From: Parvibaculum sedimenti
GTDB taxonomy: Bacteria > Pseudomonadota > Alphaproteobacteria > Parvibaculales > Parvibaculaceae
Length of the DNA stretch: 64,000 nucleotides
Direction: 5' to 3'
Assembly (NCBI RefSeq): GCF_009184905.1
Contig: NZ_WESC01000004.1
Location: forward strand, 186,001-250,000
The position numbers were made by a program, and so were the translations under genes. This document shows positions 14,620 to 20,221 of the stretch, in pieces. The notes below the pieces were generated by a model. It ran no database searches and was not told the DNA's origin. It saw nothing but the letters and a program-made list of their open reading frames with translations. The first letter of the stretch is position 1. The number at the start of each line of letters is the position of its first letter.

Positions 14620-15243
14620 TCAGTCGATGCGCTTTATCGCTTCGCTGAAACCCTTGAGCGAAACCGTATAGGCCATAGCCTCGGTGTTCGGACCGAGGAC
14701 TGTCACCGAGACGCTCTTCATCGCCGAAAGGCGGGAGATTATATCCGGATCCATGGGGAAGAGCGCATTGCAGCCTTGCGGTGTGCATCTGTTGAAAGCG
14801 TATTTCCGCGGCTTGTCCTTGGCCTCAACCGTCAGCCCGCCAGGCAGGAGAACACCCAAGGGGACGTTCACAAAAGACACCGTGCCTTTGCCGTCTTGCC
14901 GGTGCGCAACGAACCAGGAAACCGCTGGCCTGCGCTTTTCCTGATCGACAAGAAGAATGCGCGCGAAGCAGGACTGTTTGTCCTTGGTCGGACAAACAAC
15001 CTTCCAGTCGCCGAAACTTTCGACATGTGCCGCAGGCATGGACTTTGCCGCAGCCTTCCTGGGGGCAGGTTTCCTGATAGCGGGTTTCTTGGCCAAACCA
15101 GGTGCTGTCACCTTTGCCGGAGGCGGGGGAGGTGGATCGTTCAGAACCCCAACTTCCGCCCGCACCGACCCAACGGGGACCAAAAACAAACCAGCCAACG
15201 CAACGACCATAGCCGCAACGCGGCCCTTGCCAAATGCTGTCAT
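14620..15243 (-). CDS. Invasion-associated locus B (IalB) family secreted protein
   Basis: A 207-residue exported protein of the IalB family. An N-terminal signal peptide (about 1-29, ending VRAEV) is followed by a linker rich in Pro, Ala and Lys (residues ~36-73, with a run of six prolines). The IalB domain starts at FGDWKVVC (about 77-84) and has the paired cysteines typical of the family (KQSCFA, NRCTPQGC). IalB proteins are periplasmic or surface proteins of alphaproteobacteria, first linked to host-cell invasion in Bartonella, with no defined biochemical activity. It lies 77 bases downstream of the CsgG-like gene on the same strand and is probably the last gene of that operon. Confidence 0.8.
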   Translation of the reverse strand: MTAFGKGRVAAMVVALAGLFLVPVGSVRAEVGVLNDPPPPPPAKVTAPGLAKKPAIRKPAPRKAAAKSMPAAHVESFGDWKVVCPTKDKQSCFARILLVDQEKRRPAVSWFVAHRQDGKGTVSFVNVPLGVLLPGGLTVEAKDKPRKYAFNRCTPQGCNALFPMDPDIISRLSAMKSVSVTVLGPNTEAMAYTVSLKGFSEAIKRID

Positions 15244-15320
15244 ACCAACTCCCCGTGTCCCCCGCAGCCTGGGTAATCAAACAAGTGCGGGAACAAGTCC
15301 GCGCACAAACCGCCGACGTG

Positions 15321-16733
15321 TCAGTTGTCGAACCACTGATATGAATCGGACGCCTTGAACTGATAGGTCCCCGGCTTCGTGGTCTTCAGATGGACCGGCG
15401 TCGACGTAAGCTCGCTGCTGCTGGAATTACTCAACGGCTGCGTCGAAGCAAGCGAACCCTGAACGACCGACGCATTGTCCTGATTGGAACTGGTCTGCGT
15501 CGTAGAGCTCGTCGTCTGATCCTGCTGCGGCATATCCGGACTCTTCAGAGGCGCATCCTCGGCGGGCAAGGACGACACAGCCGTGGCCGTCGATGTAACG
15601 GCGGGTGTCGCGGCCTGCTTCTCCGCAGGGGCCGGAAGCGCCGCCTGCTTCTCGGCCGGTGCAGGAACGGACGCCTGCTGCTCGGCTGGCGCAGGAGCAG
15701 CTACTTTCTGCGCAGGCGAAACATAACCCACGGGCGCGGCGCTGGTCTGGGGCCCGACAGCGGCGGAAGGCGCGGCATCGTTCATGGCGTTCGGCAGTTC
15801 ATTGGCTCCCGTCGCGCCCGCGTCCGCCGTGGCCACAGGATCCTTGCCGAGTTCTGCACGCAGTTCCGGCGTATCGCAATATTTGTCGGCGCCGGTGAGC
15901 GATGAAACCATGTCGTAGGCCGCAAGCTCGAGCAGCCAGCGCACGGCGGCCTGTACGGGCTCGTTGGCCTGAGAGCCGAGATTGAACTCGAAGATTTCCC
16001 TGGGACCCCAATTTGTGCCACCGCCCATCGCGAAGAAGCGGAACAGGCCAGCGGACAATTCACTGCCCACGATCTGCTTCGAATAGGAACGCGCCATCAC
16101 GAGCTCTGTCGTCTTCGTATTCGTGAGCATCAGGTCGGCGCCGACGCTGATGTAATATTTCCGGCTACCAGCCGTCAGGCCCGCGACGCCTGCCTCGGCG
16201 ATGTCGGACTTGATGCTCCAGTTCAATTCGGTGAGCGCGCCCGAGACGAAATGGGTCGAGCCCACGATCGCGCCGGCGGTGATGGGACGATAGGCGAATT
16301 CCTTGCCCTGGACTTCCACGGGCTTGCCCTCGCCGAGCTGCTTGTCCATCGCGCGTTTCATCTCCCATTCGGAGACGGCGGTGGAATTGCGATTGACGAG
16401 CCTGACACCTGTCTTGGCCAGCGCGATCACGAACATCATGTCGGGGCGCTGCGTGAGGATCGTCGAATGTGCATCGCCGCTCGCCTGCGCGCCAGACCCA
16501 TCGGTCAGATCGTTGACGGCGAGACGCAGATCGAGCCCCGGCGGAATATGATGCGCGAGGCAACGCAAGTGGCTCTCCATGGGCGTGAAGTTTGCCCGTG
16601 GGGCCGGCCCCTGCATCACAGTCGCCTCCTGCTTGATGTCTTGGGCTGCGTCGGGCATAGCGCATGCGGCCTGTGCCAGAGCCAGAGCGACGGCAGACGA
16701 CACTCCGATAAACCTGCGAATAGCGCCGAACAT
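15321..16733 (-). CDS. CsgG-like outer-membrane secretion channel with extended C-terminal tail
   Basis: A 470-residue protein whose residues ~45-285 match the CsgG family, the nonameric outer-membrane channel that exports curli subunits. The clearest parts are ITAGAIVGSTHFVSGALTEL (151-170), the constriction-to-barrel region TAGSRKYYISVGADLMLTNT (187-206), and ELSAGLFRFFAMGGG (225-239). The leader ends near Cys24 (AQAAC), an imperfect lipobox; lipidation is plausible but not certain. Residues ~290-470 are not found in E. coli CsgG: an Ala/Pro tail with three PAPAE[KQ]QA repeats, then a Ser/Thr/Gln-rich region ending in DSYQWFDN. It follows the small Asn/Gln-rich gene by 67 bases. Confidence 0.8.
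   Translation of the reverse strand: MFGAIRRFIGVSSAVALALAQAACAMPDAAQDIKQEATVMQGPAPRANFTPMESHLRCLAHHIPPGLDLRLAVNDLTDGSGAQASGDAHSTILTQRPDMMFVIALAKTGVRLVNRNSTAVSEWEMKRAMDKQLGEGKPVEVQGKEFAYRPITAGAIVGSTHFVSGALTELNWSIKSDIAEAGVAGLTAGSRKYYISVGADLMLTNTKTTELVMARSYSKQIVGSELSAGLFRFFAMGGGTNWGPREIFEFNLGSQANEPVQAAVRWLLELAAYDMVSSLTGADKYCDTPELRAELGKDPVATADAGATGANELPNAMNDAAPSAAVGPQTSAAPVGYVSPAQKVAAPAPAEQQASVPAPAEKQAALPAPAEKQAATPAVTSTATAVSSLPAEDAPLKSPDMPQQDQTTSSTTQTSSNQDNASVVQGSLASTQPLSNSSSSELTSTPVHLKTTKPGTYQFKASDSYQWFDN
15606..15695 (-). repeat. 30-base in-frame tandem repeats in the CsgG-like gene tail
   Basis: Three consecutive copies of a roughly 30-base unit encode PAPAE[KQ]QA plus two residues (protein positions about 347-376). 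The copies are near-identical at protein level and diverged at DNA level. Such in-frame units can vary in copy number between strains. Confidence 0.7.
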
Positions 16734-16800
16734 AGAATTTACCCCACTTTTGCAGTCGCTCCCGAGGCGAAGCCGACTTCGCGCAGTTTAAAATGCGTCA

Positions 16801-17211
16801 TTACGGATTCAGCGGATCCGGATTGAGCGTAAGATCGCGCTGGTTGGTTCCCGACTGGCTGGTGTCGGTTGACGTCTGCGTCGGATCCGTAACCTTGCCG
16901 CCGTCGAAGGTGACGGTGTTGTTGTCGCCGTTCAGAACAAGCGTGTTGTTGATCTGCACGACGTTATTCATGTTCGTGTTGGCTTGCTGATCGGAATTCG
17001 ATGTACCGGAGCCCGTTCCCAGGTTGCTCCTGCCCGAGTTCCAGTAATTGAAACGGAGTGCTTCTTTGTTGGTCCTGGATGATTCCGTGTTCAGCTTGAA
17101 AGAGAGCACGTAGGGGCGAGAGAACCCGTCCTCGTCCGCGCGTGCCTGCGCCGCGCAAAGCAACACGCCCGCCATGACAAAAAGCTGAGGCAACCGCCGG
17201 TAAGAACGCAT
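16801..17211 (-). CDS. Small secreted Asn/Gln/Thr-rich protein of the CsgG locus
   Basis: A 136-residue protein of unknown family with a clear signal peptide (1-25, cleavage after AARA-type ARA before DEDG). Residues 26-58 include a possible beta segment (YVLSFKL, ALRFNYW). Residues 60-105 are rich in Asn, Gln, Ser, Thr and Gly, and contain Q75-x-A-x2-N80-x5-Q86, the Gln-Asn-Gln spacing of a curlin repeat (Q-x-G-x2-N-x-A-x3-Q). The C-terminal 30 residues are Thr/Asp/Pro-rich. Located between the repeat protein gene and the CsgG-like gene, it could be a minor subunit, nucleator or CsgF-like accessory. I see no sequence match that would decide. GAGAGGT lies upstream of the ATG at 17211. Confidence 0.75.
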   Translation of the reverse strand: MRSYRRLPQLFVMAGVLLCAAQARADEDGFSRPYVLSFKLNTESSRTNKEALRFNYWNSGRSNLGTGSGTSNSDQQANTNMNNVVQINNTLVLNGDNNTVTFDGGKVTDPTQTSTDTSQSGTNQRDLTLNPDPLNP

Positions 17212-17234
17212 GTTTGGGACCTCTCAAGATAGTT

Positions 17235-17258
17235 GGGAGGGGCTGAATTGCCCCTCCC
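17235..17258 (-). other. Intercistronic hairpin between the repeat-protein gene and the small secreted gene
   Basis: A 9-base perfect stem (17235-17243 with 17250-17258) with a 6-base loop and no T-run after it. Its place just after the major secreted-protein gene suggests an mRNA-stabilising or partial-termination element that would raise subunit expression over the downstream accessory genes. Confidence 0.55.
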
Positions 17259-17283
17259 GGTTATCGTCAAACAACCGCAGGCA

Positions 17284-19383
17284 TTACTGGACGACGGGAA
17301 CCGTCGCCGTAATCGTATTGATGCGGTTGATCGCGGCCTGCGACGCGCCGTTGATAGCGCTCGACGCGCTGCCATACGCGATGGCGGCGTTGGTCAGGTA
17401 CTGCTGGGTATCATCCGAGATCTGGTTGATCGTGGTAATACCACTGACGCCCACGGCCGAGATCGTATTGACCGAGGCCAGAGCCAGCTGCGACACGTTG
17501 GACATCGATGCTGTCGAACCGGTGCCGTCGCCATTGGCCCAGGCGCGATTGTAGATATCCAAGATGTTGCCACCCTCGCCGGTATTCTTCGAGACCTGGT
17601 TGACCGTCAACTGCGTGTCGCCGTTGAGGATGCCACCAGAGATCGAGTTGACCGACAGCGAGGCCTGCTGTGTCACATTGTCGACATTGGCATGCGTACC
17701 CCATGCCACGGCCTCGTTTCCGTTCATGACCGCATAGTCGATGGCCGCCTGATCGATGCCACCCGTCGTCGTCGTGACATCGCCGGTCGAAATCGAATTC
17801 AGGACCGTGACTGCGGTTTGATCGAGTCCGTCGATCTTGGCAGTACCGCTGTCAGTCTGCGCCACGGCCACGTTGAAGCCATTATAGGTCTGGTAATAGC
17901 TCTGGTACGGGAACATCACATAGTCGTTCACGACCTGAGAGAATGTTCCGCTAATCGACAACGTCCCGTCGTTGGACACGTTGCCCGTCGCCGGGTTGTC
18001 CACCGCGAAGGTGTTCACGACCGTGCGCAGGTACTGCGAGTCGCCGGAAATGTCGACATTGCCAGCACCCGTGACATTGCCCGCGGGGTCCGTATTGAAC
18101 AGCGCACCGTTGTTGAAGTTGTTGAAGTAAACGTACCCATCCGTATAGGCGAAGTTCCAAACGGAAGGATTGGTCGTCGCCAGGATGGAGTTGGAGGTAT
18201 AAGGCGACGAACCATTGAAGAAGGCGTACTGGTTCGCATAGCCGCCATAGGCCACACCGAAGATGTTGCCACCGCCGAAGATGTTGCCGCCGCCATAGAT
18301 GCTCGACTTCGCTTCGACGATCACGTTACCGCCGAGATCGAAGCTGCCACTCTCGGTGCCGGTAGACAGCTGAGCGGTGTTGATCGAGGCCATTGCGACC
18401 TGATCGATGCCGGTGACCTTCGGATCGCCAGCAGGCATGTGGGGCAGACCGCCAGGTGAGTAGGCACCTGCGAAGTTCTGCGACCACATCTGGGCATAGG
18501 TGTTGGTATAGGGCCCGACGCTGAAAGCATACGGATCGCCGAGGTAGAAATGCTGATAGAGGTTTACGGAGATCGGCATTCCGTCGAGGCCTGAAACACC
18601 CGCGACGTTTACGCTGTTGGCAGCGTACTGAACCGAGTTGATCGGGTCACCAACCTGCAGCGTCGAAGTCGGATCCGCCGCGAGGGCGGCGTCAACGTCC
18701 GCCTGTGTTGCAGGAATATGCCCGTCGATAAGCGCACTGCCGCCGTTAAGCGCCGCAGCGACCTCGAAGTTGGTCACAGTCTGATGGAAGGAATAGACAT
18801 CGGCGTAGGCGAACGGGCCGAAGCCAGTGCCCTGATAGAGCTGTTGATAGATATCGGTCACGCCATTATAGGCGACGTTACCATCGACATACGGCGTGAA
18901 GTCGGCCTTCAGGAACGCGCCATTGACGAGATTGCTCCCGTATTGCGTACCACCGCCGGCCGCATCGCCCCAGTTCGTGACGGCAGCCATTTCATTCGAC
19001 ACGCCCTGATAGATATAGGCGTAGCTATATGCGCCGAGAATGTTGAAGTCCTGGTTGACCGAGACCGCCGCATTACCCAGGTTGACATTGTCAGCGGTGA
19101 TGACCGTCGAGACCACCAATGGCGACGAGGAAGAGCCGATGCTGTCCAGGTAGTTCGCGCCCTGCTGCGAGCCAAACGCATCCGCTCCATAAATCGGCGA
19201 ATGCACCGAATAGGAATTATCGGTGAACGCCACGAGGTAGTTGTCGATGTACTGGTTGTAATACACGCTGCCGAAGAGCGGATTAGGCCCCTGGTTGAGC
19301 ACGATGTTCGCATCCGCGTAGGCCCTGCCACTCATCAGAGCCACGGTCGCGACGCCGAGAAATAGCGTCTTTGACATCTTCAT
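17284..19383 (-). CDS. Large secreted repeat protein, candidate CsgG-dependent fibre subunit
   Basis: A 699-residue exported protein with a signal peptide (1-24, ARAYADA type). The mature chain is rich in Asn, Gly, Ser, Thr, Tyr and Ala, and almost devoid of Cys and Lys. It carries about eight copies of a motif Q-x-A-x3-[VIL]-[ND]-[ST]-[IFV], with the Gln near 73, 252, 328, 450, 522, 572, 632 and 682. In several copies a second short strand ending in [VI]-N-Q or similar follows 21-23 residues later (274, 595, 653), giving a strand-turn-strand pattern. The last four units are spaced 50-60 residues apart. I recognise no characterised family. Its place next to a CsgG-like channel makes a secreted beta-rich (possibly amyloid) fibre protein likely. 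Confidence 0.75.
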   Translation of the reverse strand: MKMSKTLFLGVATVALMSGRAYADANIVLNQGPNPLFGSVYYNQYIDNYLVAFTDNSYSVHSPIYGADAFGSQQGANYLDSIGSSSSPLVVSTVITADNVNLGNAAVSVNQDFNILGAYSYAYIYQGVSNEMAAVTNWGDAAGGGTQYGSNLVNGAFLKADFTPYVDGNVAYNGVTDIYQQLYQGTGFGPFAYADVYSFHQTVTNFEVAAALNGGSALIDGHIPATQADVDAALAADPTSTLQVGDPINSVQYAANSVNVAGVSGLDGMPISVNLYQHFYLGDPYAFSVGPYTNTYAQMWSQNFAGAYSPGGLPHMPAGDPKVTGIDQVAMASINTAQLSTGTESGSFDLGGNVIVEAKSSIYGGGNIFGGGNIFGVAYGGYANQYAFFNGSSPYTSNSILATTNPSVWNFAYTDGYVYFNNFNNGALFNTDPAGNVTGAGNVDISGDSQYLRTVVNTFAVDNPATGNVSNDGTLSISGTFSQVVNDYVMFPYQSYYQTYNGFNVAVAQTDSGTAKIDGLDQTAVTVLNSISTGDVTTTTGGIDQAAIDYAVMNGNEAVAWGTHANVDNVTQQASLSVNSISGGILNGDTQLTVNQVSKNTGEGGNILDIYNRAWANGDGTGSTASMSNVSQLALASVNTISAVGVSGITTINQISDDTQQYLTNAAIAYGSASSAINGASQAAINRINTITATVPVVQ

Positions 19384-19447
19384 GATTTGCCTACCCTTCT
19401 AAATGTGGACGAGGCCGCATCAGCCCCGCCCCGTTCCCAGTTAACTT

Positions 19448-20221
19448 TCAGAAATGAAGAGACAACCCGATAAGCAGGTTGTTGGAGTTGAGATTCGCGT
19501 TACCGCTCATCAGGATGGACCTCCAACGATAGCCAACATCGACACTCACACTGTCCCCGAGCGGTGCCCTGACGCCTAATCCAAGCTGATATGCAAAGTC
19601 CGTTTCGTTATCGCTGCCATCGACCCTGTCCGCGGTCGGTCCCGCCAGCGTTCCCGTTCCGGCTGCGGAGTAATCGACCCAGGCCACGCCGAGGCCGCCT
19701 CCCGCATAAGGCACAACCGGCCCCTCGATCGGCAGGTCGTACCAAAAGTTGGCGAGCAGAGTGACGACCGACACATCCCCCGACAGGCTGCCGTAATGAT
19801 CGACATACGGAGTGCTATCGGTCGGAAAGATATCGGACGGGCCTTCCCTACCGGTCGCGGTGATCGAGGAAAGATCGTATTTCGCATAGGCGAGTTCGAG
19901 TTCGCCGCGCAGATCGTCGCCATCCTTCAGGATGTCGTAGAAAAGCCGCGTACCGACCGCGCCGGAAATGATCCAGGAATTGTCGAAGTTGAAGTCGTAA
20001 ACGCCGACATCGCGGCTATCCAAATTGATGTTGTCGTAATTCTTCGATGAATCGAACGACAGCCAGCTCCAGCCGCCCGCGCCCGTCACGTAATAACCTG
20101 GCCCATGCAGAATATCAGTGCGCATGGTCCCGCTTGCTTCGCCGTTCTCCTCAGCCGCGAATGCGGACGAGGAGATCAAGGCGGCAAAGACCGCGAGAGC
20201 CAGAAAAAAACGAGATTTCAT
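19448..20221 (-). CDS. Outer-membrane beta-barrel protein
   Basis: A 257-residue outer-membrane protein. It has a signal peptide (1-22, ending SAFA before AEEN) and alternating beta strands through residues ~40-257, ending in the outer-membrane signature aromatic residue (GLSLHF). The pattern (GAGGWSW, GGGLGVAWVDY, LGLGVRAPLGDSVSVDVGYRW) fits the OmpA/OmpW-like eight-strand barrels. It is the first gene of the run that continues with the repeat protein (64 bases downstream), the small secreted protein, the CsgG-like channel and the IalB-like protein. It may anchor the secreted fibre or be a bystander porin-like protein. Confidence 0.8.
   Translation of the reverse strand: MKSRFFLALAVFAALISSSAFAAEENGEASGTMRTDILHGPGYYVTGAGGWSWLSFDSSKNYDNINLDSRDVGVYDFNFDNSWIISGAVGTRLFYDILKDGDDLRGELELAYAKYDLSSITATGREGPSDIFPTDSTPYVDHYGSLSGDVSVVTLLANFWYDLPIEGPVVPYAGGGLGVAWVDYSAAGTGTLAGPTADRVDGSDNETDFAYQLGLGVRAPLGDSVSVDVGYRWRSILMSGNANLNSNNLLIGLSLHF

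Follow-up and report, generated by a model that had tools for sequence, protein, structure and literature searches.

Gene arrangement of the locus

The window, a stretch of 64,000 nucleotides from the genome of Parvibaculum sedimenti, contains a run of five minus-strand genes. In order, they encode an outer-membrane barrel protein, a secreted repeat protein of 699 amino acids, a 136-residue protein, a channel of the HfaB/CsgG family, and an IalB-family protein; all features of the window described below lie on this strand. The successive genes are separated by gaps of 64, 72, 67, and 77 bases, and each is preceded by a purine-rich stretch that, read by eye, resembles a ribosome site. The five genes (14620-20221) likely form a single operon. 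A terminator-like site on the same strand, where the barrel gene ends, counts against the export reading proposed below, although a consensus scan showed no excess of such sites (three, with 5.7 in shuffled sequences). Promoter-like sites numbered two, with 2.4 in shuffled sequences. The GC content amounts to about 0.53-0.60 over most of the interval from 10 to 25 kb, with higher values of 0.63-0.64 in the channel gene; no clear island edge is seen by GC within this interval. The earlier sequence-only reading, which centered on the 699-residue protein, had left out this gene context, with the channel gene and the 136-residue protein downstream of the 699-residue gene.

The first gene (19448-20221) encodes a 257-residue outer-membrane β-barrel protein (Pfam OMP_b-brl, 1.8e-13) and lies 64 bases upstream of the 699-residue gene. 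The barrel protein is found in two of 40 genomes, the second match (5e-6) covering part of its length. The last gene (14620-15243), located 77 bases after the channel gene, encodes the IalB-family protein (Pfam IalB, 1.1e-20). IalB-type proteins are matched in 25 of the 40 genomes at an identity of 34% or less outside the gene itself, and two of these matches are further copies in the P. sedimenti genome.

The HfaB/CsgG-type export channel

The channel gene (15321-16733) encodes a diverged outer-membrane export channel of the HfaB/CsgG family, as identified with NCBIfam and Pfam. The best match is the NCBIfam model holdfast_HfaB (NF037935; 4e-44), whose score of 150.8 bits stays below the curated cut-off of 300, while the Pfam CsgG model is matched at 3.6e-9 with 36.7 bits, above its cut-off of 20.8. 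The channel domain is followed by a long C-terminal tail (15321-15833), which spans about 170 residues and is enriched in Ala, Pro, Ser, and Gln. Compared with 60 other sequences, the channel keeps 47 of 72 conserved columns, and four invariant columns are changed. The lipobox retains its cysteine (C24) and reads QAAC where the eleven other sequences listed show L[TA]GC; across the 60 others, the corresponding columns hold Leu in 88% and Gly in 85%. Because conserved and invariant columns have been lost and the lipobox is atypical, the diverged channel gene could be decaying.

In a tree of HfaB sequences, the window channel forms a lone end branch with a length of 1.88 and no firm sister. HfaB matches, at about 35-42% identity, occur in 36 of the 40 family genomes, P. 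sedimenti included, which carries a second HfaB (region L032, 8508-9482) about 40% identical to the window channel. In the tree, the sampled sequences of the family cluster with the second copy and apart from the window channel. No low-charge partner is located within 1.5 kb of the second HfaB, and the same applies to two HfaB genes from the same genus (L033, L075). Models of HfaA and HfaD gave no match in the P. sedimenti genome and did recover the Caulobacter control.

The channel further matches the PHROG phrog_20175 (1.8e-31), which places HfaB-type proteins on record in viruses of prokaryotes. For phages, PMC7029224 describes clusters of the curli type that contain CsgG and CsgF, and the word CsgG also occurs in two marine-phage papers (PMC9004378, PMC9599517).

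The 699-residue secreted protein

The open frame of the 699-residue protein (17284-19383) was confirmed from the ORF listing, and the coordinates, strand, and length given in the sequence-only reading are correct. The protein has a low-complexity composition dominated by Gly, Ala, Asn, Ser, Thr, and Gln and is near charge-free, containing seven Lys, four Arg, and no Cys. Its residues 1-23 (19315-19383) form a putative Sec-type signal peptide as judged by eye, with a basic start, a hydrophobic core, and an AYA/D end.

Searches with the 699-residue protein found no family in NCBIfam and Pfam at E values up to 1, nothing in PHROGs at E values up to 0.1, and no match among the PDB sequences of solved structures; an autotransporter domain (Pfam) and an RTX motif are both absent. 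A protein search of 98 genomes, including that of P. sedimenti, matched the protein in its own genome alone, and no homologue was found in the phages or plasmids searched. Scans of genome contigs and viral contigs, which reach close relatives only, did not recover the 699-residue protein, and the genome-contig scans run with it and with the channel gave no confirmed relative; a scan of this kind need not show HfaB-type matches of about 35-42% identity. For the mature protein, a single-sequence AlphaFold2 prediction made without relatives reached a mean pLDDT of 30.3 and a pTM of 0.20, values too low for the model to inform on the fold.

Units and statistics of the Q/N repeat

The sequence-only reading had proposed that the 699-residue protein carries an eight-fold repeat of the form Q-x-A-x3-hydrophobic-N-[ST]. 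As claimed, the Gln residues at positions 73, 252, 328, 450, 522, 572, 632, and 682 are each followed exactly seven positions later by Asn, or by Asp for Q73. Ala is present at +2 in six of the eight units, the exceptions being 73 and 450, and the full motif is found in five. The pattern Q.A....[ND] occurs six times (mean 0.66, maximum 5 in 5000 shuffles), and the strict motif five times (mean 0.02, maximum 2 in 5000 shuffles). With a correction for the look-elsewhere effect, Q.A....N ranks first among all three-residue patterns, and its score is reached by 7.3% of 300 full shuffles and by 9.0% of 300 block shuffles, so the bare motif taken alone is borderline. The best single 20-residue self-match of the protein, with a score of 45, falls inside the shuffle range (maximum 52, n=100).

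We further performed a leave-one-out analysis that left out the Q and N columns; the remaining seven units served to score each unit, which was compared with 569 other positions. Units 522, 572, 632, and 682 outrank all 569 positions, and units 252, 328, and 450 are each beaten by one position only, while Q73 is outscored by 13. With the anchors kept, the scores of units 252, 328, 450, and 682 are reached in 1.5-3.5% of 200 shuffles, and that of Q73 in 98%. We accept seven units because their flanking, non-anchor columns rank them at or near the top. The repeat is real, though smaller than claimed: units Q522 (17785-17838), Q572 (17635-17688), and Q632 (17455-17508) are strong and the best of the set; Q682 (17305-17358), at the C-terminus, is moderate to strong; Q252 (18595-18648), Q328 (18367-18420), and Q450 (18001-18054) are moderate; and the claimed unit Q73 (19132-19185) is not supported.

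A second strand ending in [VI]-N, described for several units at 21 to 23 residues after the Gln, is seen in three of the eight, as VN at +22 in Q252 and at +23 in Q572, and as IN at +21 in Q632; unit 522 shows I-D instead. It is a weak trait, since five of all 35 Gln residues in the protein that have enough sequence downstream carry it.

The seven supported units are unevenly spaced, at 50-122 residues, and share 3-10 of 20 residues in pairwise comparisons. A seven-unit model, which was built from these very units, scores 132 bits on the 699-residue protein and at most 11.3 bits on 300 shuffles. The sequence-only reading had also suggested an HMM search of genomes; such a repeat model, run on 40 family genomes and 385 class genomes, found the 699-residue protein and nothing else.

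It is highly improbable that the repeat represents a by-product of low-complexity composition, carried without structural meaning by a young or decaying orphan gene. The finding of the gene in one genome only, the self-match inside the shuffle range, and the 7-9% of shuffles reaching the bare motif are in keeping with such an origin, but the ranking of seven of eight units at or next to the top by their non-anchor columns, the score of the seven-unit model (itself built from the units), and an open frame of 699 codons argue against it.

The 136-residue secreted protein and its probable role as a small partner

The 136-residue secreted protein (16801-17211) features a weak HfaA/curlin-like hairpin, and its gene adjoins the channel gene, as small partners do in other HfaB loci. 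The curlin/HfaA-like stretch, LVLNGDNNTVTF (16906-16941), was located in hhalign alignments, and the profile similarity of the protein is centered on it. The hhalign score reaches 28.2 against one small-partner group (s3) and 20.9 against HfaA-type rows, in both cases above all 60 shuffles; both are weak profile similarities. A by-eye likeness of the N-terminus to other small partners found no support for two further groups (s2, s4), the scores being reached by 39 and 17 of 60 shuffles, respectively. At E values up to 1, NCBIfam gave nothing for the protein, the HfaA model (NF037934, cut-off 50 bits) included, and among 40 genomes of the order it was found in that of P. sedimenti only. It may also resemble the CsgF pore plug.

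Comparison with curlin

Of the systems that use channels of the CsgG family, curli and holdfast are the two known to have been studied in their biology. With the curlin CsgA (PF07012, type VIII secretion), the 699-residue protein shares a channel of the CsgG family and a Gln/Asn repeat with small hydrophobic residues. The two differ in the distance from Gln to Asn, which is 5 in curlin and 7 in the 699-residue protein, and in the distance between units, which is about 23 residues in curlin compared to 50 or more. The PF07012 pattern S-x5-Q-x-G-x2-N-x-A-x3-Q is absent from the 699-residue protein, and the curlin family model does not match it either; this model is silent throughout the genome and detects the E. 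coli control. The sequence-only reading was thus right to set the repeat apart from that of curlin, and the Gln-to-Gln spacing of 11 it quoted for curlin agrees with an excerpt of PMC10192328. The data also agree with its further proposal of a distinct repeat type, as the 699-residue protein is the only one that the repeat model matched across the searched genomes; at the sequence level, the repeat may represent a type of its own, separate from curlin. Within open-access literature, the titles and abstract openings covered name neither the Q/N repeat nor HfaB partners beyond HfaA and HfaD.

The adjacent CsgG-family channel, the curlin-like hairpin of the 136-residue protein, and the Gln/Asn repeats, whose intervening residues are small and hydrophobic ones, would also suit a curli-like amyloid, with the 699-residue protein as the main subunit polymerizing head-to-tail via its Q/N repeats and the 136-residue protein as nucleator or anchor. 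We regard this as unlikely, as the curlin family is unmatched in the genome and the units, with their uneven spacing and low identity, contrast with the curlin repeats, which are 23 ± 5 residues long in the part of PMC10192328 consulted.

Low-charge partners of HfaB genes in the class

We surveyed 54 regions around HfaB matches from the same class, including the second copy of P. sedimenti, of which 53 gave a channel match. Each was searched for low-charge, N/Q/S/T-rich frames of at least 120 residues, and a frame was considered near when located within 1.5 kb of HfaB. This filter was set by hand with the 699-residue protein in view and then left unchanged; the passing of that protein is hence no independent result, while the contrast between near and far frames in the other loci is independent of it. 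A passing frame lies within 1.5 kb of 40 of the 53 HfaB genes, and 13 have none. Passing frames make up 75 of 581 frames near HfaB and 1 of 1016 far from it, counts that are not mutually independent, as the sample comprises several regions per genome, near-identical pairs, related genomes, and overlapping frames. In the window, the 699-residue frame is the sole passing frame among 161. When ten partners were compared with NCBIfam, two exceeded the HfaA cut-off, one exceeded the HfaD cut-off, two were HfaD-like below the cut-off, and five had no meaningful match; none of the ten exceeded a Pfam cut-off. The finding made for the 699-residue protein belongs to a class of loci, not to a family.

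The same class of loci includes unnamed large HfaB partners of about 1730 residues (L035, L038, L039) and about 1000 residues (L110, L111). Like the 699-residue protein, they are encoded beside HfaB and a small secreted protein, contain little Lys and Arg, and are long and repetitive. Their repeats, which are GN-x-[AST]-x-[NS]-like (39 units in seven proteins), are unlike those of the 699-residue protein. The small partners of L038, L039, L110, and L111 carry a WQF stretch near the N-terminus, and neither the large nor the small protein of L038 has an NCBIfam or Pfam family. One genome (G053; L036, L077, L078) holds several HfaB copies, with four matches and five tree rows, and the low-charge proteins beside them are related and carry repeats of the SATAVxNN type; the arrangement looks like a duplication of an export locus. 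Short secreted GYYD proteins lie beside remote HfaB genes in three genomes of one distant family (L063, L068, L072), and a GYYD stretch also occurs in the small partner of L038 (GYYDGFDTN).

We compared the 699-residue protein directly with these partners. In hhalign comparisons, all six partner groups score within the range of 30 shuffles each, and for unit HMMs from three partner groups the real score is reached by 232, 158, and 96 of 300 shuffles. In the reverse direction, the seven-unit model was applied to 37 partners, HfaD included; for none do five or fewer of 100 shuffles reach the score, the best value being 13. A likeness of the C-terminus of the 699-residue protein to L078 was striking by eye, and a register test with Asn on Asn gave a z of 4.7 for the FD group, but this was weakened by masking. 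Masking Asn, then Asn and Ala, and then a third column changed the FD-group z from 4.8 to 3.4, 2.4, and 2.7. For the pooled set, the z of 4.0 fell to 2.3, 1.3, and 2.1, and registers other than this one scored equally well or better. At no individual site did the score in the register test rise above the 95% point of the maxima obtained from shuffles. Another register, against the partners of about 1730 residues, kept a z of 4.0-4.5 under masking and was not counted as homology. With unit HMMs and profiles at shuffle level and the register score lowered by masking, homology to the partner repeats was rejected.

Alternatively, the 699-residue protein could be a secreted surface protein that lies near the channel by chance and whose way out of the cell is a different one, such as with the upstream barrel protein. 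The barrel gene 64 bases upstream, the diverged channel, and the lack of homology to the HfaB partners tested are in keeping with such a route; the clustering of low-charge frames beside HfaB genes and the absence of an autotransporter domain and an RTX motif from the 699-residue protein oppose it, and OMP_b-brl is, to our knowledge, not an export family. We consider another route quite unlikely.

Comparison with HfaD and predicted fold

Among the known systems, HfaD (NF037936), which occurs with HfaA and HfaB in Caulobacter, is likewise a low-charge secreted protein rich in N, Q, S, and T, and its gene, like that of the 699-residue protein, has genes for a channel of the HfaB family and for a small secreted protein beside it. 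The surface localization of HfaA and HfaD in Caulobacter depends on HfaB according to an excerpt of PMC6707917. In contrast to these likenesses, the 699-residue protein is not matched by the HfaD model at E values up to 1 and has no profile similarity to HfaD above shuffles. Moreover, the order of its locus (large protein, small protein, channel) is unlike that of the HfaD locus, and the genome contains no HfaA by model.

For the HfaD family, chosen as the functionally closest counterpart, a structure was predicted for L112 (3260-4504) from an alignment of ten sequences (A2). L060, the one of the ten tested against the HfaD model, scores 338.8 bits (cut-off 100) and is 56% identical to L112; three of the ten rows are 22-23% identical to L112. 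The L112 model reaches a pLDDT of 86.5 and a pTM of 0.84 and consists of strands almost throughout. With a threshold of E 0.001, Foldseek retrieved nothing from the PDB for this model, and a second structural aligner placed CsgA first (Z 14.8, rmsd 9.0, 199 residues aligned), level with SufB-SufC-SufD entries and ahead of many β-helix proteins. A sequence search with L060 found no solved structure. From the predicted model, HfaD is most likely a β-solenoid. Since the 699-residue protein shares setting and composition with this HfaD-family partner of HfaB, the solenoid or stacked arch envisaged in the sequence-only reading is plausible for it, only by analogy with the HfaD-family prediction.

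Proposed role and implications

On balance, we favor, with modest confidence, a reading in which the locus is a dedicated export system of the HfaB/CsgG type and the 699-residue protein is its large substrate, exposed at the cell surface and probably serving in attachment. The export reading is supported by the HfaB/CsgG identity of the channel, the tightly spaced genes on the same strand, the clustering of low-charge frames near HfaB genes, the match of the 136-residue protein to one group of small HfaB partners and to HfaA-type rows, the β-solenoid predicted for an HfaD-family protein, and the HfaB dependence of HfaA and HfaD localization in Caulobacter. It is weakened by the lack of sequence similarity to other partners, the uninformative fold prediction, the divergence of the channel, the 13 HfaB genes lacking a passing frame within 1.5 kb, and the finding of the locus in one genome only.

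We postulate that the 699-residue protein would cross the inner membrane via Sec and then pass, unfolded, through the HfaB-type pore. Outside the cell, it would fold into a mainly β-stranded rod, probably resembling a solenoid, with the Q/N repeats stacked upon each other. The 136-residue protein and the channel would hold this rod at the cell surface, where it may serve adhesion or matrix anchoring. The protein would thereby take the role that HfaD has in the holdfast, with a sequence that bears no detectable relation to HfaD.

More tentatively, the locus may represent a substrate class of the CsgG/HfaB route that is unrelated to curlin, HfaD, and the partners compared here, and that combines its own Q-x-A-x3-hydrophobic-N repeat with a diverged channel and a small anchor. 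If true, the channel family would not be tied to a single conserved family of substrates but would have recruited low-charge solenoid adhesins anew, time and again. If the locus works, the channel would select its substrates by composition and unfoldedness, not by a shared family, and HfaB genes would serve as a marker of unrecognized surface adhesins in the class, with near-charge-free N/Q/S/T-rich frames beside HfaB as the candidate rule.
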